Positions 6,204-35,937 of a stretch of 61,272 nt of DNA are shown here, piece by piece. The stretch is from Marinobacterium profundum (lineage in GTDB: Bacteria; Pseudomonadota; Gammaproteobacteria; Pseudomonadales; Balneatricaceae), in contig NZ_BCNS01000103.1 of assembly GCF_001528745.1 (NCBI RefSeq), positions 1 to 61,272 of the forward strand. The letters run 5' to 3'. The stretch's first letter is position 1, and each line of letters starts with the position of its first letter. The notes beneath the pieces are model-generated. The model saw nothing but the letters and a program-made list of their open reading frames with translations. It was not told where the DNA came from and searched no databases. Both the position numbers and the translations under genes were made by a program.

Positions 6204-6734
6204 ATGGACTCAGCACAACAGCAGGCGGCCGTCGAGGCGGGCTACGCGGCTCTGATCGATTCTGTGGCAACGCTGTCACTGGCTACGGTGGCGGCGGATG
6301 GTCGGGCGGACATCAGTTATGCGCCCTTTGTACGGGATGAGCGTGGGCGCTTTTGTATCTTTATCAGTGCGCTGGCGGCCCATACCGGCAATCTGCTGCG
6401 TGAGCCTGCGGCCTCGGTGATGCTGATTCAGCCGGAAGCGCAGGCGAGCAATCTGTTTGCCCGCGAGCGCCTGACGTTACGCTGTCGCGCCGAAGAAGTT
6501 CAGCGCGATCATGCCGACTACGAGCCAATACTGCAGTGCATGCAGGCGCGTTTTGGCCCGCTGATCGCTCAGTTGCGCAGCCTGGCGGATTTTCATCTGC
6601 TGGCGCTGGTGCCACTATCCGGCACTTACGTTGTGGGCTTTGGGCGCGCCTATGAGCTGGATGTGCACAGTGGCGAACTGCGTCATATAGATGCCGACCG
6701 CTTGCGCCGACGCTCAGCAGGGGAAGCGGACTAG
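6204..6734 (+). CDS. HugZ-like pyridoxamine 5'-phosphate oxidase-fold protein
   Basis: A 176-residue protein of the flavin-reductase-like split beta-barrel fold. The segment ATLSLATVAADGRADISYAP, the HTGNLLREPAASVMLI region and the conserved end LVPLSGTYVVGFGRAYEL are typical of HugZ/HutZ-family heme-utilisation proteins. These bind and may degrade heme in the cytoplasm. No heme transport genes are nearby, so the heme role rests on family resemblance only. It is a single gene, followed by a dispersed repeat element. Confidence 0.75.
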   Translation: MDSAQQQAAVEAGYAALIDSVATLSLATVAADGRADISYAPFVRDERGRFCIFISALAAHTGNLLREPAASVMLIQPEAQASNLFARERLTLRCRAEEVQRDHADYEPILQCMQARFGPLIAQLRSLADFHLLALVPLSGTYVVGFGRAYELDVHSGELRHIDADRLRRRSAGEAD

Positions 6735-6807
6735 GAGGCTGTCCGAGAATGCTGGCCGTAGCGAGAGCCGACTGATTTGCGCGTGCAAATAAAGTAACAC
6801 GACCATC

Positions 6808-6995
6808 CTATCCACCCGGTGGACAAATAGGTTCCCTCCCTATTTGTCCGTCACGCCAGAACTCTTTAGCTTAAAAGAATGGGCGCAAGTGCATGGACTT
6901 GCTGGCCTTCTTGGGGGGGGCGAAGAGATGGCGTTCGCATTGGCCTGTGGCCAATGATGAAGCATCCCTGCTTCATGTATTAACCAGGTTAATAG
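6808..6995 (+). repeat. dispersed multi-hairpin element, copy A
   Basis: It shares long identical blocks with 23547-23706. These include the hairpin GGACAAATAGG/CCTATTTGTCC, GCAAGT/ACTTGC, ATTGGCC/GGCCAAT and ATGAAGCA/TGCTTCAT, ending in TTAATAG. The terminal repeats here are degraded (CTATCCACCCGG at the left). It fills the gap between hugZ-like and GIDE genes. No protein is encoded. Confidence 0.85.
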
Positions 6996-12264: not shown

Positions 12265-13353
12265 ATGTTTATTATGAATGCTCTCAAGGGTGATCGTGGT
12301 GGCCAGATTCTGCTGGGGGTACTGCTGGTGCTGGTCATCGCGGTGCCGCTGCTGAACCTGATGGTACCGGCGGGCCATGCGTTGCATATTCCCACCTACA
12401 CAGTGACGCTGATGGGCAAGTATCTGACCCTGGCGCTGCTGGCGGTGGCGGTGGATCTGGTCTGGGGCTATCTGGGGATTCTGACCCTGGGCCACGCAGC
12501 CTTCTTCGCCCTGGGTGGTTATGCCATGGGCATGTACCTGATGCGCCAGATCGGTGATAGGGGTGTTTATGGCAACCCCGACCTGCCGGACTTCATGGTG
12601 TTCCTGAGCTGGGATCAGCTGCCCTGGTTCTGGAACGGTTTTGATCAGTTCTGGTTCGCGGCCCTGATGGTGCTGCTGGTGCCGGGTCTGCTGGCCTTTG
12701 TTTTCGGTGCCCTGGCGTTCCGGTCCCGGGTGTCGGGGGTCTATCTGTCGATTATTACCCAGGCGCTGACCTACGCGCTGATGCTGGCGTTCTTTCGCAA
12801 TGAAATGGGCTTTGGCGGCAACAACGGCCTGACCGACTTCAAGGAACTGCTGGGCTTTGATCTGCAGTCGGACGAGACCCGCATCGGCCTATTTGTTGCC
12901 TCCGCGGTGGCGCTGATGCTGGGATATCTGCTGTGCCGGATACTGATGAACGGTCGCCTTGGGCGTGTCTGTGTGGCGGTGCGTGATGCCGAGTCCCGTG
13001 CGCGCTTTATCGGTTACAGAGTCGAGAACGTAAAGCTCGGTGTCTTTACCGTATCCGCCATGCTGGCCGGTATTGCCGGTGCGCTCTACGTGCCTCAGGT
13101 CGGCATTATCAACCCCGGCGAGTTCTCACCGCTGAACTCCATTGAAGTGGTGGTCTGGGTGGCTGTGGGTGGCCGGGCAACCCTGTACGGCGCCGTGGTG
13201 GGCGCTCTTGTGATCAACTACGCCAAGACCTACTTCACCGCCGAGCTGCCGGAAGTCTGGCTCTTCGCCCTGGGTGGTCTGTTTGTGCTGGTTACGCTGC
13301 TGCTGCCGCGTGGCATCACCGGTCTGTTGCGTCGCAAGGAGGCCAGCGCATGA
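12265..13353 (+). CDS. urtC: urea ABC transporter permease UrtC
   Basis: A 362-residue LivM-like membrane permease with about nine hydrophobic helices. It includes VDLVWGYLGILTLGHAAFFALG near residue 58 and the conserved coupling segment VAVRDAESRARFIGYRVENVKL. A second ATG three codons in (MNALKGD) is an alternative start. It pairs with UrtB. Its stop overlaps the start of urtD (ATGA), indicating translational coupling. Confidence 0.97.
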   Translation: MFIMNALKGDRGGQILLGVLLVLVIAVPLLNLMVPAGHALHIPTYTVTLMGKYLTLALLAVAVDLVWGYLGILTLGHAAFFALGGYAMGMYLMRQIGDRGVYGNPDLPDFMVFLSWDQLPWFWNGFDQFWFAALMVLLVPGLLAFVFGALAFRSRVSGVYLSIITQALTYALMLAFFRNEMGFGGNNGLTDFKELLGFDLQSDETRIGLFVASAVALMLGYLLCRILMNGRLGRVCVAVRDAESRARFIGYRVENVKLGVFTVSAMLAGIAGALYVPQVGIINPGEFSPLNSIEVVVWVAVGGRATLYGAVVGALVINYAKTYFTAELPEVWLFALGGLFVLVTLLLPRGITGLLRRKEASA

Positions 13354-14189
13354 AGGTGGCTACTGTTTTTGAACAAATGCTGGACCGCGAACATGTGTAC
13401 CCCTTTATGCAGGGGGCGCAGTATCGCAACATTGATGTCAGTCACAACGTGCTGCTGTATCTGGAAGGTATTTCGGTCAGCTTTGACGGCTTCAAGGCCA
13501 TCAATGACCTGAACCTTTATATCAACGATGGCGAGCTGCGCTGCATTATAGGCCCCAACGGCGCCGGCAAGACCACCATGATGGACATCATCACCGGAAA
13601 AACGACGCCCGACAGCGGCTCGGCCTGGTTTGGCCAGAGTATTAATCTGCTGGAGCTGGATGAGCCTGCTATTGCCCAGGCGGGTATAGGGCGCAAGTTC
13701 CAAAAGCCCACGGTGTTCGAGTTTCTGTCAGTGGCGGAAAATCTGGAATTGTCGATGGAAGGAGACCGCGGTCTCTGGTCGATCATCAGCAGCAAGCTGA
13801 CCGGTGAGCAGCGGGATCACCTCGACAAGGTGGCGGAAATGATTGGTCTGGTTGAGCAGCGCGGGCTGCGTGCCGGCAGTCTGTCCCACGGTCAGAAGCA
13901 GTGGCTTGAGATCGGCATGCTGCTTATGCAGCGACCGCGTCTGCTGCTGGTGGATGAACCCGTAGCCGGCATGACGCACCAGGAAATGGACCGCACCGCT
14001 GAGCTGCTGATCTCCCTTGCCGGTGAGCATTCGGTGGTGGTGGTGGAGCATGATATGGACTTTGTACGCAACCTGGCGGGCAAGGATCGTACCGTGACGG
14101 TGCTGCATCAGGGATCGGTACTGGCCGAAGGCACCATGGAGCAGGTACAGAATAATCGCAAGGTTGTTGAAGTTTACCTCGGGGAATAA
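13350..14189 (+). CDS. urtD: urea ABC transporter ATPase UrtD
   Basis: A 279-residue ABC ATPase on the cytoplasmic face. Walker A is GPNGAGKTTMMD, the signature motif is the variant LSHGQKQWLEIG typical of UrtD, and Walker B is LLLVDEPVAGM. The N-terminal ~35 residues before LEGISVSFDG are a leader usual for UrtD. The gene ends VVEVYLGE; a second diverged copy of this 3' end occurs again at 14291-14312 just before urtE. Confidence 0.97.
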   Translation: MKVATVFEQMLDREHVYPFMQGAQYRNIDVSHNVLLYLEGISVSFDGFKAINDLNLYINDGELRCIIGPNGAGKTTMMDIITGKTTPDSGSAWFGQSINLLELDEPAIAQAGIGRKFQKPTVFEFLSVAENLELSMEGDRGLWSIISSKLTGEQRDHLDKVAEMIGLVEQRGLRAGSLSHGQKQWLEIGMLLMQRPRLLLVDEPVAGMTHQEMDRTAELLISLAGEHSVVVVEHDMDFVRNLAGKDRTVTVLHQGSVLAEGTMEQVQNNRKVVEVYLGE

Positions 14190-14192
14190 GGC

Positions 14193-14315
14193 ATGTTGAA
14201 TGTGACAGTTCTAAACCCGCCTTACGGTGAGGTGCATCGCCTGTGGACTCTTGGCCAAACTGGGCCCGGTGCAAAGCAATCGGCTCACGTTTTTGAAGTT
14301 TACCTCGGGGATTAA
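14193..14315 (+). CDS. 40-aa micro-ORF mimicking the UrtE N-terminus
   Basis: The gap between urtD and urtE is one open frame of 41 codons. It begins MLNVTVLNPPYGEVHRLW, with 12 of 18 residues identical to the start of UrtE (MLKVTGLNQFYGESHTLW). It ends VFEVYLGD, a copy of the UrtD C-terminus (VVEVYLGE). GGGGAATAAGG is a good Shine-Dalgarno before its ATG, and urtE starts three bases after its stop. It is therefore a diverged tandem duplication of the urtD/urtE junction that has stayed open. Translation is plausible, function unknown. Confidence 0.5.
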   Translation: MLNVTVLNPPYGEVHRLWTLGQTGPGAKQSAHVFEVYLGD

Positions 14316-14318
14316 CGC

Positions 14319-15014
14319 ATGCTCAAAGTTACAGGTCTTAACCAGTTTTACGGTGAAAGCCATACCCTTTGGGATGTGGAGCTGGACGTTCCCAAGGGCA
14401 AATGCACGGTACTGATGGGCCGCAATGGCGTGGGCAAGACCACACTGTTGCAATGCATCATGGGGCATCAGGCGGTCAAGAGTGGCCAGATTGAGCTGGC
14501 GGGCCAGGATCTTCTGGCGCGCTCGGTGGAGCAGCGTCCGCGTCTGGGCGTGGGCTATGTGCCCCAGGGACGGCAGATCTTTCCGCTGCTGAGCGTGGAA
14601 GAGAATCTGCAGGTGGGCTTGCCGGTTCGCAAGCGTGGCGATCGCAAGATACCGGATTACATTTTCGAGCTGTTCCCTGTGCTCAAACAGATGCTGAACC
14701 GGCGCGGCGGTGATCTGTCGGGCGGTCAGCAGCAGCAGCTGGCGATTGGTCGGGCGCTAGTGGTGGATCCGCAGCTATTGATACTGGATGAGCCTACTGA
14801 AGGCATTCAGCCGAATGTGGTGCAGGAGATCGGCGATATTATCCGTCACCTGAACCGCGAGTTCGGCCTGACTGTGTTGCTGGTGGAGCAGAAGCTGCCG
14901 TTCGCCCGCAAGGTTGCGGATCATTTCTGCATCCTTGATCGCGGCCGCAGTGTGGCAACAGGCGCCATGGACAGGCTGGACGATAGCCTGATACGCAAAT
15001 ACCTGACGGTGTGA
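14319..15014 (+). CDS. urtE: urea ABC transporter ATPase UrtE
   Basis: A 231-residue LivF-like ABC ATPase. It has Walker A GRNGVGKTTLL, the diagnostic GYVPQGRQIFPLLSVEENL, signature LSGGQQQQLAIGRAL and Walker B LLILDEPTEGIQPNVV. It works with UrtD to power urea uptake. A pseudo-start of this gene lies immediately upstream (14193-14315). The next gene, ureD, begins about 50 bp downstream, linking urea import with hydrolysis. Confidence 0.97.
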   Translation: MLKVTGLNQFYGESHTLWDVELDVPKGKCTVLMGRNGVGKTTLLQCIMGHQAVKSGQIELAGQDLLARSVEQRPRLGVGYVPQGRQIFPLLSVEENLQVGLPVRKRGDRKIPDYIFELFPVLKQMLNRRGGDLSGGQQQQLAIGRALVVDPQLLILDEPTEGIQPNVVQEIGDIIRHLNREFGLTVLLVEQKLPFARKVADHFCILDRGRSVATGAMDRLDDSLIRKYLTV

Positions 15015-15063
15015 TCGCGGACATGCATAAAGTGAACCCAGTGGCAGGGAGAGGGAAGTGAGT

Positions 15064-15900
15064 ATGCAGATGGCGGCACAGGCAGAGCGCGGCTGGCAGG
15101 CCCGACTGGAGCTGGGGTATGAGTCCCGCGGTGGCAAAACCCGCCTGGTGCATCGCAGTATGCATGGGCCCTTGGCGGTGCAGCGGCCTTTTTATCCCCA
15201 GGATGGGATCTGCCACAGCTACCTGCTGCATCCCCCCGGCGGGGTGGTGGGAGGTGATGAACTGGAGATCGATGTGCGGGTTGGGGATGGCGCCCATGCG
15301 CTGCTGACCACCCCTGGTGCCACCAAATTTTATCGTTGTGCAGGACTCACCGCACATCAGTGCCAGCACTTCTGGGTAGAGGATGGCGGTATTCTGGAGT
15401 GGTTGCCGCAGGAAAATATCTTCTTTCCCGGCGCATCGAGTCGTTTGCGCAGCCGTATTGATGTGGCGGCAGGCGGGCGCTTTATCGGCTGGGAATTCCA
15501 GTGTTTGGGGCGCCCCGCCAATAATGAAAATTTCAGTTTTGGCAGCGTCGACAGTCGCTGCGAACTGCGTTTTGATGGCAAGCGCGTGCTGATTGATCAG
15601 TTGCAGGTGCGGGGGCTGGATCAGTTTGGTGCCGCAGCCGGTATGCGCGGTCATTCAATGGCGGCCAGCCTCTATGCCTTGCCTGCCACCGAGGCTGCGC
15701 TGGAAAGGGTACAGTCACTGATTGACGAGCATTTTGCCAAGCATGCCATTGGAGCAACTCTGGTGGATTCGGTGCTGGCCGTGCGCATGCTGGGGCAGAA
15801 TACCGAAGACATTCAGGCGGTGCTGATTCCCTTGTGGGAGCTGCTGCGCCGAGAATTGCTGGAGCTTGAACCCTGCCCGCCGCGTATCTGGTCGACCTGA
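15064..15900 (+). CDS. ureD: urease accessory protein UreD
   Basis: A 278-residue chaperone that, with UreF and UreG, inserts nickel into the urease apoenzyme in the cytoplasm. Family features are RHSMHGPLAVQRPFYP (here VHRSMHGPLAVQRPFYP), HPPGGVVGGDELEI, LTTPGATKFYR and the WLPQENIFFPGA segment. I take the ATG at 15064, eight bases after GGGAGAGGG; a GTG at 15058 is possible. ureD is separated from ureABC by two opposing genes, an unusual break in the cluster. Confidence 0.95.
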   Translation: MQMAAQAERGWQARLELGYESRGGKTRLVHRSMHGPLAVQRPFYPQDGICHSYLLHPPGGVVGGDELEIDVRVGDGAHALLTTPGATKFYRCAGLTAHQCQHFWVEDGGILEWLPQENIFFPGASSRLRSRIDVAAGGRFIGWEFQCLGRPANNENFSFGSVDSRCELRFDGKRVLIDQLQVRGLDQFGAAAGMRGHSMAASLYALPATEAALERVQSLIDEHFAKHAIGATLVDSVLAVRMLGQNTEDIQAVLIPLWELLRRELLELEPCPPRIWST

Positions 15901-15946
15901 ACGCGACGGGTTCTCTCGCTGTTAGCGCTTCGGGTACTTAGCCTGG

Positions 15947-17035
15947 TTAGTTGTTACGGCCATCATGTCGCAGCAATCGGTGGTCTTCATCGCTGGGGGC
16001 CTCGCCTTCGTTGCGTCGGCGTACGGGGCCTGGGTCCTGCCGATCTGCCCGTCCTTCTGCCCTTGCTTCAGTACGGCGGGCCCTGTCGTTAGCGGGCTGT
16101 GTTTCGTTCCTTGCGGCCTGGCGCCCTTGATCCCTTCTTTCTGCGACTCTTTCGGCTTTTTTCTCTAGCTGTCTTTCTGCCTGTCTTTCAGCCTTTTTAT
16201 CCATTCGGCTCTCTGCCTGTATGGCTTCGCGCCGTTCGCTGCGCGAGGTTTTGCCGTCTTGGCGCTCCTGCCGTTCCCGCTGGCGAGTCTCGTGACGCCG
16301 TAGGTCTGGATGCTCAGCGCGGCCTGAGTTGCGGTTCACTCTGTTATCAGACTGGCGGTTCTCCTGCCGACGCCTTAACTCCTGCCGACCTTGTGCCTCC
16401 TGAAACTGCGTCCGGCGTCTTTCAGTGGTGTTAGCCTCATTTATTCGCTGAAGCATCTCCGCCCGACGCCGGTCATCACCTGAGCGCTCGGCGCGCACAC
16501 GCCTGTCGTCCTGGGTACTGCGTTCGAAGCGGCGTGGGTCACTCTGGGTATCGACGGATGAGTGGCGTTCTTGCCGCTCGCGACTATCGTTGCGGTCTGA
16601 GCGACGACGATCAGAGTCCCTATGGCCCCGACCGTCGTTGCGTCCATCATGCTGGCGCCAGCGATTGCCGTCACCGCGGTAATTCTGGCTGTGTTTCTGG
16701 TAGTCGCGGTAGGGATGATCGCGGTGAGCTTTCATGCGCACACGGTGATCGGGGTGCAGTTGGTAATGACGCGGCAGCGTGCGAGTACGGACCCAGCGAT
16801 GCTCATGCTGATAGTAGTAATAGCCGGAGTGGATATTGAAATAGATACCCACGCTCGGATAGTAATAAAAATCATCATAGTAGCGATCGCTAATATAGCG
16901 ATCGTTAAAGCCGCTGTTGCTGGAGCCGTAGTCGTAATTCCTGACCGCGCCATCGCTGTGGTAGGGCTCATAGGCGCAACCTGCCAGCACAGTAGCGGCT
17001 AACAGCGTCATTACCTTGAAAATCCTGGCCGACAT
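15947..17035 (-). CDS. Arg-rich putative lipoprotein
   Basis: A 362-residue protein with a lipoprotein signal: VMTLLAATVLAGCAYEP with lipobox LAGC. A Tyr-rich stretch (DDFYYYPSVGIYFN, YYYYQHEHRW) follows and then a long low-complexity tail rich in Arg, Glu, Gln and Asp (from about residue 115) that should be highly charged and disordered or helical. GGAGGTGCTCC precedes the ATG. The Tyr-rich start resembles short conserved regions of other proteobacterial lipoproteins of unknown role; the tail is not recognisable. It lies antiparallel inside the urease cluster. Confidence 0.65.
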   Translation of the reverse strand: MSARIFKVMTLLAATVLAGCAYEPYHSDGAVRNYDYGSSNSGFNDRYISDRYYDDFYYYPSVGIYFNIHSGYYYYQHEHRWVRTRTLPRHYQLHPDHRVRMKAHRDHPYRDYQKHSQNYRGDGNRWRQHDGRNDGRGHRDSDRRRSDRNDSRERQERHSSVDTQSDPRRFERSTQDDRRVRAERSGDDRRRAEMLQRINEANTTERRRTQFQEAQGRQELRRRQENRQSDNRVNRNSGRAEHPDLRRHETRQRERQERQDGKTSRSERREAIQAESRMDKKAERQAERQLEKKAERVAERRDQGRQAARNETQPANDRARRTEARAEGRADRQDPGPVRRRNEGEAPSDEDHRLLRHDGRNN

Positions 17036-17382
17036 GGAGCACCTCCGGTGTTATCAGTTGTGTAGGAACCTCCGTTGTTCCGGGATGCGGGCGCGTCCCT
17101 GAGCCTTGAGCAACTGTTTTGTGCAATGTTTCAGCGCCGGTCATGTATCCATGCTGCAGTGACTGCAAATGGGCGCCATGACGGGGGCGGGTTATATCCA
17201 TTAAGACAGCGAACAACTGAATCAATGCTGAAAGAGTCGTTGCAGGCGTGAAATGAACATGTGGGCGCGGATTGCCGGGGCGTGAATTCCTGTGGTAGGG
17301 GTTATTGCGATGGATGCGATTGCAGCGGTAGTGATGAATGCGGTAGCGGCAGCTTGGTGCAGGCTCCTGGAATAAAGGCGTA
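17036..17382. other. intergenic region with no recognised feature
   Basis: About 350 bp upstream of the lipoprotein gene and downstream of the hemolysin III gene. Apart from the ribosome-binding site of the lipoprotein gene I see no promoter, repeat or convincing small gene. Confidence 0.4.
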
Positions 17383-18039
17383 TCAGAATGCGTGCCAGAG
17401 CACGGCGAAGTAGTGGCAGGTGGTGCCGGCCATGACAAACAAATGCCAGATGAAGTGCCCGTACAGCAGGCTGGAATCGAGTACAAAAAACAGTACCCCA
17501 ACCGTATATGCCAGACCACCGCCGACCAGCCAGGCGAGTCCGGTGCCTGACAGGGATTCACTCAGCGGCTCTATCATCAGCACAATCAGCCAGCCCATCA
17601 GCAGGTAGAGCCCTGTGGACAGCGCTGGGCGTGACAGCCGCTGGGTGATTTTCAGTACAACGCCTATGCCCGCCAGTAACCAGATGGTTGTCAGCAATAT
17701 CCAGCCGCCGGGGCCATCCAAAACGCCCAGCATAAAGGGTGAGTAGGTGCCGGCAATCAGCAGGTAGATGGCGGAGTGCTCTATAACACGCATCAAGCGT
17801 TTGGCCCGGCCCGGGGGCAGGGCGTGGTAGAGGCTCGAACTGAGATACAGCAGCACCATGCTGAGGGCAAAGAGGCTGACGCCGATAATGATGCCGATAT
17901 CGCCGCGCTCCACGGCCTGCAGGATCAACACCGGTGCTGCGACCAGGGTGGCGATGAATCCCAGGCAGTGGCTCAGGCTGTTGGCCAGTTCCTCTGTGCG
18001 GGACTGGGGTCTGCCGGGGATCTGGGGTGGGTTGCGCAT
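17383..18039 (-). CDS. hemolysin III / PAQR family membrane protein
   Basis: A 218-residue seven-helix membrane protein of the YqfA/hemolysin III group. It has the conserved EELANSLSHCLGFIAT start, SSLYHALPPGRAKRLMRVIEHSAIYLLIAGTYSPFML and the C-terminal HFIWHLFVMAGTTCHYFA. The Ser/His/Asp residues in these motifs are the putative metal-binding hydrolase site of the PAQR/CREST superfamily. The physiological role is unclear, and true haemolysis is doubtful in such proteins. It is oriented against the urease genes. Confidence 0.92.
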   Translation of the reverse strand: MRNPPQIPGRPQSRTEELANSLSHCLGFIATLVAAPVLILQAVERGDIGIIIGVSLFALSMVLLYLSSSLYHALPPGRAKRLMRVIEHSAIYLLIAGTYSPFMLGVLDGPGGWILLTTIWLLAGIGVVLKITQRLSRPALSTGLYLLMGWLIVLMIEPLSESLSGTGLAWLVGGGLAYTVGVLFFVLDSSLLYGHFIWHLFVMAGTTCHYFAVLWHAF

Positions 18040-18490
18040 GATGATTACCTACTCCCTGAGTACGCGAGAATTCCGCCGGCTGCCGAGCCTTGCCCTGCAG
18101 TTTAGTCCAGCCAGGGCTGAAGCCGCTGTATTTGGATGATGAGGTCCGTGCAGGAGCACTGTCGTTGTTGGTGCCGTTTGGCGTTCTGGGTGTTCGCAAT
18201 TTACTGCTGTCATTTTGGTGCGCTGAGCGCACTTCTTTTGTGCATTCCTGTTCGTGGCGCTCTCTTATGGTGCGCATTTGTACGCCCGGATCATGTTGGG
18301 TGCCGAGTGAGAACAGTGTGCAGTCATAAATGGACGGTGAGAGTCGCGCGCTTTGGTGGCTGGCGGCTGTGATGTGCCAGATTGGTCTGGGTATTGCATT
18401 CATAATTTCACACTTTAGGCGGGTGGCTGCACCGCAAGGCTTTGCTGCGGTAAACGGTCTGCTTTCTACCAATCTTTATGGGGTTCCTGC
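18040..18490 (+). promoter_or_regulatory. regulatory region upstream of ureA
   Basis: A 450-bp divergent region between hemolysin III and ureA. It contains a perfect dyad GTGCGC-TGA-GCGCAC at 18218-18232 and a sigma-54-like core at 18383-18398. It also has GGTGCGCA near 18270. The arrangement (possible activator site about 165 bp upstream of a sigma-54 core) fits nitrogen control, but only the core spacing is well supported. Confidence 0.5.
18383..18398 (+). promoter_or_regulatory. candidate sigma-54 promoter of ureA
   Basis: TGGTCTGGGTATTGCA keeps GG and GC exactly 10 bases apart and a perfect -12 box (TTGCA). The -24 box is weak (TGGTCT instead of TGGCAC). Transcription would start near 18409, about 80 bp before ureA. 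Because ureABC is cut off from the urt promoter by opposing genes, a separate promoter is needed here. Confidence 0.55.
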
Positions 18491-18793
18491 ATGGAATTGA
18501 CACCACGGGAAAAAGACAAGCTGTTGCTGTTTACCGCCGGCCTGCTGGCGGAGCGTCGCAAGGCGCGGGGGCTGAAACTCAATTACCCGGAAGCGATTGC
18601 CTATATCAGTGCCGCCATTCTGGAAGGCGCCCGCGACGGCCGTACCGTAGCCGAACTGATGGACTACGGACGCACCCTGCTCAGCCTGGATGATGTCATG
18701 GATGGGATTGCCGAGATGATTCACGATGTTCAGGTCGAAGCGACCTTTCCCGATGGCACCAAGCTGGTCACGGTGCACGATCCAATTGTCTGA
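18491..18793 (+). CDS. ureA: urease gamma subunit
   Basis: A 100-residue structural subunit of urease. It matches the gamma family throughout: [64 protein letters not shown]. It assembles with UreB and UreC in the cytoplasm. A micro-ORF copying the ureB start follows immediately (18803). Confidence 0.98.
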
Positions 18794-18802
18794 GGGGGCG
18801 CT

Positions 18803-18892
18803 ATGCCAGTAAATGAAATGAAGGCACAAGGATACGGCGCTATTGGGCTCTGTGTTTGCGGCCCAGCCCTGCCACTGGAGAAAGCGTCATGA
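18803..18892 (+). CDS. 29-aa micro-ORF mimicking the UreB N-terminus
   Basis: [16 protein letters not shown]... starts nine bases after the ureA stop, behind a strong GAGGGGG Shine-Dalgarno, and stops with TGA overlapping the ureB ATG (ATGA). Its first 16 codons align in frame with ureB ([15 protein letters not shown]) with one extra codon. DNA blocks GAAATGAA and ACGGCG-TATTG-GCT are shared. It looks like a diverged duplication of the ureB start, kept open. No database check was possible. Confidence 0.4.
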
Positions 18893-19194
18893 TCCCGGGT
18901 GAAATGAAAGTGATGGACGGCGATATTGAGCTTAACGTGGGACGCCCCGTGGTGACGCTCAAGGTGGCCAATACCGGAGACCGCCCCATCCAGATCGGTT
19001 CCCACTACCACTTTTATGAAGTCAACGATGCACTGCAGTTCGAGCGTGAACAGGCGCGGGGCTTTCGTCTCAATATTGCCGCCGGCACCGCCGTGCGTTT
19101 TGAGCCGGGGCAGAGCCGCACCGTCGAGCTGGTGGGATATGCCGGCAATCGCAAGGTTTACGGCTTTCAGGGCAAGGTGATGGGGGACTTGTAA
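18889..19194 (+). CDS. ureB: urease beta subunit
   Basis: A 101-residue structural subunit starting [16 protein letters not shown], the standard UreB N-terminus. It also has [38 protein letters not shown] and the end [20 protein letters not shown] precedes the ATG. An in-frame start 11 codons earlier would add residues not found in UreB. Its stop overlaps the next ATG (TAATG), which belongs to a micro-ORF and not to ureC. Confidence 0.98.
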
Positions 19195-19289
19195 TGGCAC
19201 AAATATCAAGACAGGCCTATGCGGAGTCCGTTACGAGAGCGGCCCACGGGGGGCTTTTTGCCGCGTGTAATTCAGGGAGGTGTAACTGA
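19194..19289 (+). CDS. 31-aa micro-ORF mimicking the UreC N-terminus
   Basis: It starts on the last base of ureB (TAATG) and ends on the first base of ureC (TGATG), so it exactly bridges the two genes. [13 protein letters not shown] shares 10 of 13 residues with UreC ([13 protein letters not shown]). The rest ([18 protein letters not shown]) is unrelated and holds two cysteines. GGGGGA precedes its ATG and GGGAGG precedes ureC. It is a third junction duplication of the same design in this cluster. Confidence 0.5.
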
Positions 19290-20992
19290 TGGCCAGAATT
19301 TCACGACAGGCCTATGCGGAAATGTTTGGGCCCACCACCGGAGATCGGCTGCGACTGGCGGATACCGAACTCTGGCTGGAGGTCGAGAAGGATTTCACCG
19401 TTTACGGCGATGAAGTGAAGTTCGGCGGCGGCAAGGTCATCCGTGATGGCATGGGGCAGGGACAGTTCCCCAGCAGCCAGACCATGGACCTGGTTATCAC
19501 CAATGCGCTTATTCTGGATCACTGGGGTATCGTCAAGGCGGATGTGGGCATCAAGGCCGGGCGTATTGCGGCTATCGGCAAGGCGGGCAATTCCGATGTG
19601 CAGCCGGGCGTCGACATTCTGATTGGCCCTGGCACCGAGATACTCGCAGGCGAAGGCCAGATTCTTACCGCAGGCGGCATCGATTCCCATATTCACTTTA
19701 TCTGCCCGCAGCAGATCGAAGAGGCGCTGTGCTCCGGCATCACCACCATGCTGGGCGGCGGTACCGGGCCTGCCACCGGCACCAATGCCACTACTTGTAC
19801 GCCAGGGCCCTGGAACATGCATCGCATGCTGCAGGCCGCCGATACGCTGCCCATGAATATCGGCTTTCTCGGCAAGGGCAATGCCAGCCAGCCAGAAGCA
19901 CTGCGCGAGCAGGTCGCCGCCGGTGCCATTGGCCTCAAGCTACACGAGGACTGGGGCACCACACCGGCCTCGATCAACTGCGCGCTCAGTGTGGCCGAGG
20001 AAATGGACGTGCAGGTGGCCATTCACACCGACACCCTGAACGAGTCGGGTTTTGTGGAAGAAACCCTCAAGGCCATCGGCGGGCGCACCATTCATACCTA
20101 TCACACCGAGGGCGCTGGCGGCGGCCATGCACCGGATATTATCAAGGCGGCGGGCTATGCCAATGTGCTGCCCTCGTCGACCAACCCGACGCGGCCCTAC
20201 ACCGTCAATACGGTGGATGAGCACCTGGACATGCTGATGGTCTGCCATCACCTGGATCCGAGCATCGCCGAGGATGTGGCCTTTGCCGAGTCGCGCATCA
20301 GGCGCGAAACCATCGCTGCCGAAGACCTGCTGCACGACCTGGGTGCCTTTTCGATGATTTCATCCGACTCCCAGGCCATGGGGCGGGTGGGCGAAGTGAT
20401 CACCCGCACCTGGCAGACGGCGCACAAGATGAAGGTCCAGTTTGGCAGCCTGGCAGGTGATCCGGCCGGGCACGACAACACGCGCCTCAAGCGTTATATC
20501 GCCAAGTACACCATCAATCCGGCGCTGGCTCACGGTATTGCCCATGAAGTGGGTTCTATCGAAGTCGGCAAACTGGCGGATCTGGTGCTGTGGCGGCCGG
20601 CGTTTTTTGGCACCAAACCCAGCATCATCCTCAAAGGGGGTCTGATTGCTGCGGCGCCAATGGGGGACCCGAATGCGTCTATCCCCACGCCGCAGCCGGT
20701 GCACTACAGGCCGATGTTTGGTTCCTATGGCGGCGCCTGTCAGGCGACCTCCATGCTGTTTATGTCCCAGGCCGCCATTGCCGCCGATGTGGCAGGGCAG
20801 GTGGGGCTCAAGAGCCTGATCGGTGAGGTGCGCAACTGTCGCAGCGTGACCAAAAACGACATGGTGCATAACAGCTATCAGCCGGTGATCGAGGTGGACT
20901 CGCAAACCTATCAGGTGCGCGCCGATGGTCGCTTGCTGATCTGTGAGCCGGCCGCGGTACTGCCAATGGCGCAGCGCTACTTTTTGTTCTGA
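19289..20992 (+). CDS. ureC: urease alpha subunit
   Basis: A 567-residue catalytic subunit hydrolysing urea to ammonia and carbamate at a two-nickel centre. All active-site residues are present at the standard numbering: His134 and His136 (DSHIHF), carbamylated Lys217 (GLKLHEDWG), His246, His272, the Cys319-His320 flap (VCHHLD) and Asp360 (SSDSQAMGR). GGGAGGTGTAACTG precedes the ATG. The length equals that of the usual bacterial alpha chain, and nothing is missing. Confidence 0.99.
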
Positions 20993-21560: not shown

Positions 21561-22112
21561 ATGAGAATCACGCACAAGGCAGCCGCGGCGACCCTGCTGG
21601 CACTGACATCGCCCCTGACACTGGCCCACACCGGGTCAGACATGGCGGGTTTTGCCGCCGGAATGCTGCACCCGCTGACAGGTCTTGATCATTTGGCGAT
21701 GCTGCTGGGTGTCGGTGCCCTGGGGGCCAGCCAGGCGCTGCGCGCCCGTGTCGGTATGTACGGCGCCGCATTGGCTGCACTGCTGGGTGGTGCGCTGCTG
21801 GGGTTGGCCACAGGCTGGGCTTACGGTATCGAACTGATGATTGGGCTGTCGCTGTTTGTGGCGGCGGCGGGCCTGTGGTTCGGGCGTGGCAAGGCCCTGG
21901 CGCTAATGGCATCGGTCGTGCTGGTGTTGTTTCATGGTTGGGCCCACGGGCTTGAAGTGGCGCCGACGCAGATGGCGTTGTTCCTGCCAGGCATGTTGCT
22001 CACGGCCTGTGGCCTGCTGGGAGCGGGCTACGGGCTGGGTCGCTTGATGGCGCCAAAGGCGCTGGGTGCCAGCAGTGCGCTGACCGCAGTTGCGCTTGCG
22101 TTCTTTGCCTGA
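21561..22112 (+). CDS. ureJ: HupE/UreJ nickel permease
   Basis: A 183-residue membrane protein with a cleavable or anchoring N-terminal segment (ALTSPLTLAHTG) and five to six further helices. The motif HPLTGLDHLAMLLGVG is diagnostic of HupE/UreJ secondary nickel transporters, and HGWAHGLE near residue 130 is a second His-containing motif. Placement between ureE and ureF fits nickel supply for urease. Confidence 0.93.
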   Translation: MRITHKAAAATLLALTSPLTLAHTGSDMAGFAAGMLHPLTGLDHLAMLLGVGALGASQALRARVGMYGAALAALLGGALLGLATGWAYGIELMIGLSLFVAAAGLWFGRGKALALMASVVLVLFHGWAHGLEVAPTQMALFLPGMLLTACGLLGAGYGLGRLMAPKALGASSALTAVALAFFA

Positions 22113-22121
22113 GTCCGGCTG

Positions 22122-22787
22122 ATGCTGCCGGATCTGCGCCTGTATCAGCTTACCAGCCCATCGTTGCCGGTGGGCGGTTTTACCTACTCCCAGGGGCTTG
22201 AGTGGGCTATCGAACGTGGCTGGGTTACTTCAATCGAGAGCCTTGGTGACTGGCTTGAAAGTGTGCTGCACCACAGCCTGGTCACACTGGAGTTGCCGCT
22301 GCTGAGTCGGCTCCATACTGCCTTTGGGCAGCAGAATTGGGTGCAGGTGGATGACTACTGCCAGTGGTTGCTCTGTTGCAGGGAAACCCGTGAGTTGCGC
22401 CAGGAAGAGCGCCAGCGCGGTGCGGCCCTGGCAACGCTGTTGCCGAACCTGGGAATCGAAATCTTGCCGGAGATGGCTGAGTCGGTACGCAGTACCCAAT
22501 TGGCGGGCTTTGCGCTGGCTGCGGTGCGCTGGGACATAGCGCCCCGAGATGCGCTGCTGGGGTTTTGCTGGAGCTGGCTTGAAGCCGGTGTCATGGCAGG
22601 GGTCAAGCTGGTGCCGCTGGGGCAGACGGCCGGTCAGCAACTGCTGCTGCGACTGTCCGAGCGCGTGCCAGCGGCACTGGAGCGAGCCCTTGGCATCGAT
22701 GATGATCATATCGGCAGCTCGACACTGGCGCTGGCGATTGCCAGCAGCCGGCACGAGACGCAGTACACACGCCTGTTCAGATCCTGA
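22122..22787 (+). CDS. ureF: urease accessory protein UreF
   Basis: A 221-residue all-helical accessory protein that bridges UreD and UreG in the nickel-insertion complex. Conserved parts are YQLTSPSLPVGGFTYSQGLEWAIERGWV, the ETRELRQEERQRG segment and a C-terminal KLVPLGQTAGQQLL region. The start is ATG at 22122, nine bases after the ureJ stop. Confidence 0.97.
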   Translation: MLPDLRLYQLTSPSLPVGGFTYSQGLEWAIERGWVTSIESLGDWLESVLHHSLVTLELPLLSRLHTAFGQQNWVQVDDYCQWLLCCRETRELRQEERQRGAALATLLPNLGIEILPEMAESVRSTQLAGFALAAVRWDIAPRDALLGFCWSWLEAGVMAGVKLVPLGQTAGQQLLLRLSERVPAALERALGIDDDHIGSSTLALAIASSRHETQYTRLFRS

Positions 22788-29973: not shown

Positions 29974-29981
29974 AGTCTTAA

Positions 29982-30243
29982 GGGGCTAGGGGCTAGGGGC
30001 TAGGGGCTAGGGGCTAGGAGGTGCGAGGTGCGAGGAGTGAGGAGTGAGGAGTGAGGAGTGAGGAGTGAGGAGTGAGGAGTGAGGAGTGAGGAGTGAGGAG
30101 TGAGGAGCGAGGTGCGAGGTGCGAGGTGCGAGGTGCGAGGTGCAAGAAGATAGGTGCGAGGGGCAAGAAGATAGGAGCGAGGTGTTAGGGGCTAGAAGAA
30201 AGGGGCGAGGTGCGAGAGGCGAGGTGAAAGATGAAAGATGAAA
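29982..30243 (+). repeat. heptamer repeat array 4, reaching into the lutR start codon
   Basis: Thirty-seven 7-bp units in one phase apart from a 3-bp insertion GGA at 30017. They are GGGGCTA x5, GGTGCGA x2, GGAGTGA x10 (30034-30103), GGAGCGA, GGTGCGA x4, then degenerate units such as GAAGATA, GGTGTTA and GGGGCGA, ending GGTGAAA, GATGAAA, GATGAAA. The ATG of the regulator at 30231 is part of a GATGAAA unit. The array fills nearly all of the space between the lutA operator and the regulator gene. Confidence 0.92.
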
Positions 30244-34710: not shown

Positions 34711-34739
34711 GTACATGGATGTACGGTATCGGGGCGGAG

Positions 34740-34988
34740 CCGGTTGGAATGCAGGTTGGGTGCAGGCCCGAAGGGCCGTAACCCAACAATGGTCGTAGCC
34801 CAGCAATCTGCCTCCGGCGGTTGATGGGTTTCGCTGCGCTGCACCGCATCCTACTTGGTGAAAGTGATGTCCGGGAAACGCCGAACGTGCCGGTTGGAAT
34901 GTAGGTTGGGTGCAGGCCCGAAGGGCCGTAACCCAACAATCTGCCATCCGCCGGTTGATGGGTTTCGCTTCGCTGCACCACATCCTAC
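34740..34988. repeat. REP/BIME repeats left of the RAYT gene
   Basis: Two pairs of oppositely oriented repeat units. Forward units begin (G)TAGGTTGGGTGCAGG with an internal GGCCC/GGGCC hairpin, at about 34749 and 34902. Reverse units end GCACCGCATCCTAC, at about 34856 and 34988; read on the other strand they also begin GTAGGAT. A GTAG foot plus hairpin is the hallmark of REPs mobilised by RAYT transposases. Confidence 0.85.
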
Positions 34989-35076
34989 GGGGACGTGGAG
35001 CAAGCGCCCCCTCTGTACCTTCGGTACGTCTATGCTGAAACGACGATAAGGTTCTGTGGATTCAAGGATCGACACT

Positions 35077-35598
35077 ATGGAATACCGGCGAATAAGGAAA
35101 CCCGGTGGAACCTATTTTTTCACGGTGGTGCTGGCTGATCGCTCCTCGATGCTGCTGGTAGATAATATTGAGCACCTGCGTCAGGCTTTTCGGCAGGTCA
35201 GGGGTGAAATGCCGTTCAGGCTGGAAGCGGCTGTGGTTTTACCTGAACATCTGCATTGTATTTGGACACTACCCGAAGGTGATGTCGACTATCCGCGCCG
35301 ATGGCAGCGGATCAAGGCTAGTTTTTCGCGCCAGCTGCCCAAGGTGGCTCCAGGATCTGCCAGCCAGGTTGCGAAGCATGAGCGGGGCATATGGCAGCGG
35401 CGTTATTGGGAGCATCTGATCCGCGATGAGCATGATTTTCACCGGCATCTCGATTATATCCATTACAACCCGGTCAAGCATGGGCTGGTTGCGAGGCCTT
35501 GTGACTGGCCGTACTCGAGCTTTCATCGGTTTGTAAAACGGGGGTATTACACCGCTGACTGGGGCGATGAACCTGAAGCCGTCAATGCCGGTGAGTAG
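35077..35598 (+). CDS. REP-associated tyrosine transposase (RAYT)
   Basis: A 173-residue Y1/HUH transposase starting MEYRRIRKPGGTYFFT. An in-frame ATG seven codons upstream does not match the family. It shows the HUH-type metal motif in LPEHLHCIW, the catalytic tyrosine region DYIHYNPVKHGL, and the common C-terminal DWPYSSFHRF. RAYTs nick single-stranded DNA at GTAG-footed REP hairpins. REP pairs flank the gene on both sides, making a complete REP-RAYT unit inserted between tctA and its regulators. Confidence 0.93.
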   Translation: MEYRRIRKPGGTYFFTVVLADRSSMLLVDNIEHLRQAFRQVRGEMPFRLEAAVVLPEHLHCIWTLPEGDVDYPRRWQRIKASFSRQLPKVAPGSASQVAKHERGIWQRRYWEHLIRDEHDFHRHLDYIHYNPVKHGLVARPCDWPYSSFHRFVKRGYYTADWGDEPEAVNAGE

Positions 35599-35599
35599 T

Positions 35600-35937
35600 G
35601 GTGCAAATGAAGGGTTTCGCTTCGCTACACCGCATCCTACTTGGTGAAAAGTGACCGGTGGCCGGAGGATATCCGGTTGGAGTGTAGGTTGGGTGCAGGC
35701 CCGAAGGGGCGTAACCCAACAATGGTTGTAGCCCGGCACCGAATTCGCCGGTGATTGATGGGTTTCGCTTCGCTGCACCACATCCTACTTGGTGAAAGTG
35801 ACCGGTGACCGGATGATATCAGTTGGAATGTAGGTTGGGTGCAGCCCCGAAGGGGCGTAGCCCAACGATGGACGTAACCCAACGATGGTTGCACCGCCAG
35901 TTGATGGGTTTCGCTTCGCTGCACCGCACATCCTAGG
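35600..35937. repeat. REP/BIME repeats right of the RAYT gene
   Basis: Reverse units (GCACCGCATCCTAC type) end near 35634, 35788 and 35935; forward units GTAGGTTGGGTGCAG start near 35680 and 35829. TTGGTGAAA-GTGACCGG spacers repeat between pairs. The last reverse unit overlaps the 3' end of the response-regulator gene. Confidence 0.85.

Follow-up and report, generated by a model that had tools for sequence, protein, structure and literature searches.

The window analysed here, a stretch of 61,272 nucleotides (nt) from Marinobacterium profundum (contig NZ_BCNS01000103.1 of assembly GCF_001528745.1), carries a cluster of genes for urea transport (urt) and urease (ure), three of whose junctions, urtD-urtE, ureA-ureB and ureB-ureC, hold micro-open reading frames (micro-ORFs) that begin like the gene lying downstream. 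An original prediction had pointed them out, and they do exist, encoding 29-40 amino acids (aa) and stopping either 3 nt before the real start of the next gene or in overlap with it. The features concerned are:

13350..14189, plus strand: urtD, whose last ~50 nt are duplicated downstream
14193..14315, plus strand: micro-ORF 1 (urtD-urtE), 40 aa, MLNVTVLNPPYGEV...HVFEVYLGD, in-frame fusion of a urtE start copy with a urtD tail copy, in a 126-nt unit
14319..15014, plus strand: urtE, from its real start
18491..18793, plus strand: ureA
18803..18892, plus strand: micro-ORF 2 (ureA-ureB), 29 aa, a diverged ureB start copy in which the ureA tail is not recognisable
18889..19194, plus strand: ureB
19194..19289, plus strand: micro-ORF 3 (ureB-ureC), 31 aa, ending in GRCN, a ureC start copy in which the ureB tail is not significant
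19289..20992, plus strand: ureC, from its real start

The stop codon of micro-ORF 1 ends 3 nt before the urtE ATG at 14319, the TGA of micro-ORF 2 overlaps the ureB ATG at 18889 as ATGA, and that of micro-ORF 3 overlaps the ureC ATG at 19289 as TGATG, its own ATG overlapping in turn the ureB stop as TAATG. Translational coupling is described, in an excerpt of a published article (PMC12548453), as most efficient at spacings of -4 to +3 nt, a range that includes all three end links of the window (+3, -4 and -1) and two of its three start links (+3, +9 and -1), with exceptions in other species. By eye, a G-rich, Shine-Dalgarno-like run precedes each of the three micro-ORFs, as had been claimed.

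The gaps of the window junctions were locally aligned with the downstream start and with the upstream tail, against a null of 1000 dinucleotide shuffles; urtB-urtC, urtC-urtD and ureJ-ureF, with gaps of less than 10 nt, lay outside this test. The predicted mimicry of the next gene by the first codons was borne out at urtD-urtE and ureB-ureC (score 44 and 0/1000 shuffles in both) and more weakly at ureA-ureB (score 31, 1/1000 shuffles, and 61/1000 at the peptide level). No start copy beyond chance was detected at urtA-urtB, urtE-ureD, ureC-ureE, ureE-ureJ or ureF-ureG (119-938/1000 shuffles), so that the other junctions of the cluster lack one, as had been stated, in the case of ureC-ureE, ureE-ureJ and ureF-ureG. 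The ureC-ureE tail score was reached in 17/1000 shuffles, yet it was higher with the tail of another gene. A feature that the original prediction overlooked is the copy of the urtD tail in the urtD-urtE gap, which spans 55 columns (score 52, 0/1000 shuffles). Since the start and tail copies share one 126-nt diagonal, the unit is, judging from the alignment, the entire junction duplicated in tandem and not just a start, with the order urtD, copy of the urtE start, copy of the urtD tail, urtE, and with both genes intact.

Seven congeneric Marinobacterium species, labelled G000 to G006, were compared, G000 being the source genome of the window. In that order, the gaps measure 129, 3, 83, 32, 1, 1 and 447 nt at urtD-urtE, 95, 93, 59, 9, 9, 10 and 63 nt at ureA-ureB, and 94, 94, 474, 94, 85, 89 and 88 nt at ureB-ureC. 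The ureB-ureC unit is open in all seven species and in 11 of 11 units, ten of which end in TGATG and the remaining one 3 nt before ureC; in the single-contig genome of G002 it is repeated in tandem as five 95-bp units, every one of them with a 31-aa ORF that terminates in TGATG. At urtD-urtE, G006 carries two extra units of 222 bp, each encoding a 72-aa fusion of the UrtE start to the UrtD tail whose end lies 3 nt upstream of the following start, and no unit is found in G001, G004 or G005. In the case of ureA-ureB, a 28-aa relative is present in G001 and one of 13 aa in G006, the G002 gap contains no ORF starting with ATG, and G003, G004 and G005 have no unit. Within the genus, units thus come and go, and the ureB-ureC unit expands to five tandem copies. 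The absence or randomness in close relatives that could have spoken against the original prediction is therefore found in part at urtD-urtE and ureA-ureB, and not at ureB-ureC. Assembly errors, also raised there, are an unlikely source of the duplications, because units are present in species whose genomes were assembled independently, two of them (G001 and G002) as a single contig. Moreover, a significant copy of the UrtB tail lies in the urtB-urtC gap of G005, where an ORF (MQATRQ...DRAAEG) ends in frame with it, 3 nt upstream of urtC; the start copy of this ORF, with a score of 23 against a null maximum of 29, is not significant. Outgroup loci, 80 in all, have median gaps of 3 nt at urtD-urtE (79 readable), 41 nt at ureA-ureB (36) and 3 nt at ureB-ureC (37), and gaps longer than 60 nt occur in 18/79, 15/36 and 7/37 of them, respectively, so the special feature of these junctions is the copies and not the length of the gaps.

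Frame-blind scans for close direct repeats led to further junctions of the same anatomy, and such units are not confined to urea genes. Between murG and murC, five of the seven species contain chained micro-ORFs, three each in G000, G001 and G006, two in G003 and six in G002; those of G000 lie in the genome of the window itself (contig C210, near 21926-22522). Several of them consist of a MurC start followed by a MurG tail, such as MHKSPTVFEVPGSVARICLDTMK, and others are start copies alone. The distance from the MurG stop to the PEMRRI motif of MurC is 139-469 nt in six of the seven species and 35 nt in G005, whose junction is tight, whereas it is 16-56 nt in 20/20 genomes sampled from other genera of the family (hand-chosen from 13 genera, among 53 other-genus genomes with a match). 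This spacing offers the clean contrast between the genus and other genera. At an ABC ATPase-permease junction, read in five species, TGATG links the single 56-aa unit of G000 as well as the two units of G002 (74 and 71 aa), and G001, G003 and G006 show a bare TGATG. Both ends of the junction are thus copied at urtD-urtE, by the shuffle test, and at murG-murC and the ABC junction, where translations were read and the ABC tail copy was recognised by eye; the significant copy is of the start only at ureB-ureC and ureA-ureB, and of the tail only at urtB-urtC of G005. The tail of a gene that by eye is thiolase-like is also copied without a start copy in G002, and tail copies of this kind suggest a general duplication process on which coupling acts as a filter. 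As a separate observation, contig C100 of G000 (6480-6888) holds a 214-bp tandem copy, 97% identical, of the 3′ end of a gene, including a terminator-like hairpin.

Three genome-scale scans were read along with controls. The diagonal scan counts boundary repeats of the start, end or both classes, its sums leaving out partial matches (four in G000, two in G002 and one in outgroups) and the REP-like (repetitive extragenic palindrome), tRNA, period below 24, inside-gene and intergenic classes, the REP-like one having been assigned through a word list of our own. It gave 17 matches in 1.70 Mb of the genus (6 in 461 kb of G000, window included, 3 in 418 kb of G001, 7 in 419 kb of G002 and 1 in 400 kb of G005) versus 5 in 0.82 Mb of the control genomes (1 in 419 kb of G017 and 4 in 400 kb of G019), none in 200 kb of sequence from 11 family loci, and, at 58-69% identity, 3 in the 1.36 Mb of the 80 outgroup loci. 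By eye, the four G019 matches are intergenic repeats rich in palindromes, or a hairpin region that is repeated, and not junction copies, and that of G017 is a long repeat (63%); those of the genus include a low-complexity case in G000 and a multi-copy protein repeat in G002. The junction scan, with a threshold of a start or tail score above 99.9% of the null, returned start/tail matches of 3/3 among 146 junctions of G000, 1/1 of 138 in G001, 2/1 of 149 in G002 and 2/2 of 129 in G005, and of 1/0 of 141 in G017 and 2/1 of 120 in G019. Read by eye, the four control matches correspond to tRNA genes, an unlisted gene, an intergenic repeat and one ordinary AT-rich gap, and those of the genus to junction copies at urtD-urtE, the ABC junction, murG-murC and urtB-urtC, several others being repeats or unclear. 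Genes were called as the longest ORF, a procedure that missed ureB-ureC of G000. Finally, the peptide scan (score of at least 22) gave 3, 4, 3 and 6 matches in G000, G001, G002 and G005, of which only those at the ABC junction, urtD-urtE, murG-murC and ureB-ureC were accepted as genuine, and none in G017 or G019, G017 being a weak control because the composition filter left 47 sites there.

Seven concatenated genes of the cluster differ between species at 27-56% of their synonymous sites, while 11/11 ureB-ureC units stay open. Eight of these units, all but those of G004, G005 and G006, can be aligned free of gaps, and among them at least 75 substitutions have accumulated with no break of the start, frame or stop; about 9.4% of random substitutions would cause such a break, and the probability of none is ~6e-4. 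In the same eight units, the ratio of non-synonymous to synonymous differences (pN/pS), computed from pairwise counts that are not independent of each other, is 0.35 for codons 2-11 in frame 0, versus 1.07 and 1.19 when the same stretch is read in the other two frames, and 0.85 for codons 12-27. These break counts and ratios indicate that the start, the frame and the links are kept, the remaining peptide being nearly free. The fusion is in frame at all four junctions with a readable tail (urtD-urtE, murG-murC, the ABC junction and urtB-urtC of G005), where one third would be expected, although open junctions are easier to notice; fusions were counted per junction and not per species because the urtD-urtE units of G000, G006, G002 and G003, and likewise the ABC units, may share one event. 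At the ABC junction, the permease start copies of G000 and G002 share 97% and 94% identity, respectively, with their own gene, and 81-94% (G000 copy, four relatives) or 74-83% (G002 copy) with the genes of other species. Similarly, the urtE start copies of G006 are 98-100% identical to their own gene and 73-93% to the others, and the ureC start copies are not nearer to their own gene than to the ureC of all other species. Such identities fit ureB-ureC units that are old and evolve separately, and copying that was recent or concerted at some other junctions. As to the RNA, folding of the junction units was not unusual (z values of 0.43, and of 0.90, -0.14, 0.59 and 1.75), which does not support RNA structure, or a structured attenuator, as the constrained feature.

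We consider it fairly probable that recurrent duplications of junctions survive where stop-start translational coupling is kept, so that the peptide would matter little, and the frame and the linkage would matter. Short tandem duplications arise recurrently in Marinobacterium, presumably by recombination. If the breakpoints fall one within the upstream gene and the other within the downstream one, both genes would remain intact, and the inserted mini-cistron would carry the start of the downstream gene first and the tail and stop of the upstream gene last. The copied upstream stop would then rebuild the local stop-start geometry on both sides, allowing coupled translation to continue: a ribosome ending the upstream gene would start again on the mini-cistron and, after it, on the real gene, and in this way the micro-ORFs probably pass ribosomes from gene to gene. 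With the expression of the operon little disturbed, the unit would persist, and could later multiply in tandem, take over sequence again from its own flanking gene or be cleanly lost. The scars of a repeated duplication process that the original prediction had proposed are well supported by the copies, their recurrence at several operons and the tandem arrays. Its translational-coupling devices stand as a filter on survival, given the linked codons and open frames, and are not supported as dedicated dosage devices, the units being absent or lost in close relatives and their peptides relaxed past the start copy.

The main alternative is that the units are neutral scars of common duplications, kept at junctions merely since both genes stay whole there, their openness being inherited from coding DNA and unselected. 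The tail copies without a start copy, such as the thiolase-like one, the bare junctions of sister species and the open frames that GC-rich DNA leaves by chance speak for it, as does the test of premature stops alone at ureB-ureC, which is not significant (P 0.057). We regard it as rather unlikely, since start, stop and frame have been kept in every ureB-ureC unit despite the synonymous divergence of the cluster genes, the constraint on the start-copy codons is specific to one frame, and the fusions are in frame more often than by chance, though partly noticed because they are open. Several observations, besides this premature-stop test, nevertheless weigh against survival through coupling. At urtD-urtE, the short ORFs of G002 and G003 lack a fused tail and terminate 13 nt into urtE. 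In the murG-murC array of G002, one link is broken, an ORF reading past the next start, and the longer gap of G004 at this junction holds just a frame running into MurC and no linked micro-ORF. Several junctions of sister species have no unit, which makes the units dispensable there, and with others broken or absent in some species, only a ureB-ureC unit is found genus-wide. Neither the ureB tail in the ureB-ureC unit (355/1000 shuffles) nor the ureA tail in the ureA-ureB unit (710/1000) is significant, so that the duplication origin of both rests on the start copy and on analogy. The raw junction scan separates the genus from the controls weakly before the matches are read by eye. Finally, the middles of the units are more diverged than their ends, which is not expected from plain neutral decay, and the ends may perhaps have been repeatedly rewritten from the intact genes.

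Dedicated regulatory devices, setting subunit ratios or sensing nitrogen through a leader peptide or a decoy N-terminus, could be suspected from the position of three units in urea transport and urease genes and from the retention of the ureB-ureC unit in all seven species. We judge them very unlikely: murG-murC and the ABC transporter share the same anatomy, which disfavours a urease-specific dosage device, RNA folding is unremarkable, the peptides are relaxed outside the start copy, and sister species do without units; the decoy N-termini of the original prediction found no positive support. Another candidate is a family of small mobile elements aimed at stop-start overlaps, like the MIRU elements of mycobacteria, which, according to the excerpt cited above (PMC12548453), are inserted between stop and start with the coupling geometry kept. 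Such a family seems highly improbable here, as five junction gaps have no clear sequence in common (nine of ten pairs at 46/300 mononucleotide shuffles or more, the tenth, ureA-ureB with murG-murC, at 15/300) and the units match their own flanks instead.

MIRU elements are in any case the closest known system and would work alike, with an internal ORF whose stop overlaps or lies near the downstream start, a trait also found here apart from exceptions (murG-murC of G004, urtD-urtE of G002 and G003). However, as far as that excerpt describes them, they form one dispersed and apparently mobile family, whereas the Marinobacterium units appear to be copied from their two flanking genes, with no clear sequence shared across junctions. 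The micro-ORF links also use the -4, -1 and small positive spacings of ordinary translational coupling (NTGA, TGATG or TAATG; same excerpt of PMC12548453), which normally joins two functional genes, whereas in the present junctions copied fragments stand in a row between the genes, as many as six in the case with one link broken. Intergenic small ORFs of Enterobacteriaceae, in the part of the report consulted (PMC11188072), are likewise short and run in the same direction as a nearby gene, with which some overlap by 1-4 nt; they mostly have no detectable homologs, compatible with a de novo origin, whereas those described here are copies of neighbouring gene ends. The original statement that no such system had been described holds insofar as no account of junction-copy micro-ORFs was found in the open-licence literature, represented mostly by titles and the beginnings of abstracts, and is qualified by the functional parallel of MIRU. 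A paper on the genus Marinobacterium (PMC10868613) makes no mention of tandem structures, repeats, duplication, urease, intergenic regions or genomic islands.

A wider reading, which we put forward only tentatively, is a lineage-wide growth of the genome through self-copying junctions, in which coupling would filter random duplications into persistent and expandable ribosome-relay arrays, even in murG-murC, with new fused small proteins as a by-product. The sister species provide a natural series, from 0 to 6 mini-cistrons at one junction, for gauging chained termination and reinitiation. Moreover, the duplications open a route to the birth of small chimeric ORFs that leaves genes unbroken, and offer a testable reason for the growth of operon spacing in one genus while its relatives stay tight.

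Other features of the window deserve a brief mention. A match to the Rfam family 5_ureB_sRNA (19441-19724, minus strand, 89.1 bits) lies antisense to the ureC coding sequence and outside the micro-ORF units, and may just reflect conserved urease coding sequence. An array with a 7-nt period (distances 28, 35, 42 and so on) at 29981-30213 is a simple sequence repeat, and tandem REP-like units of 116-120 bp are located near the contig end (60485-60850). Finally, REP-looking repeats (34739-35930) stand on both sides of an ORF at ~35080-35600, which we take to resemble a REP-associated tyrosine transposase.

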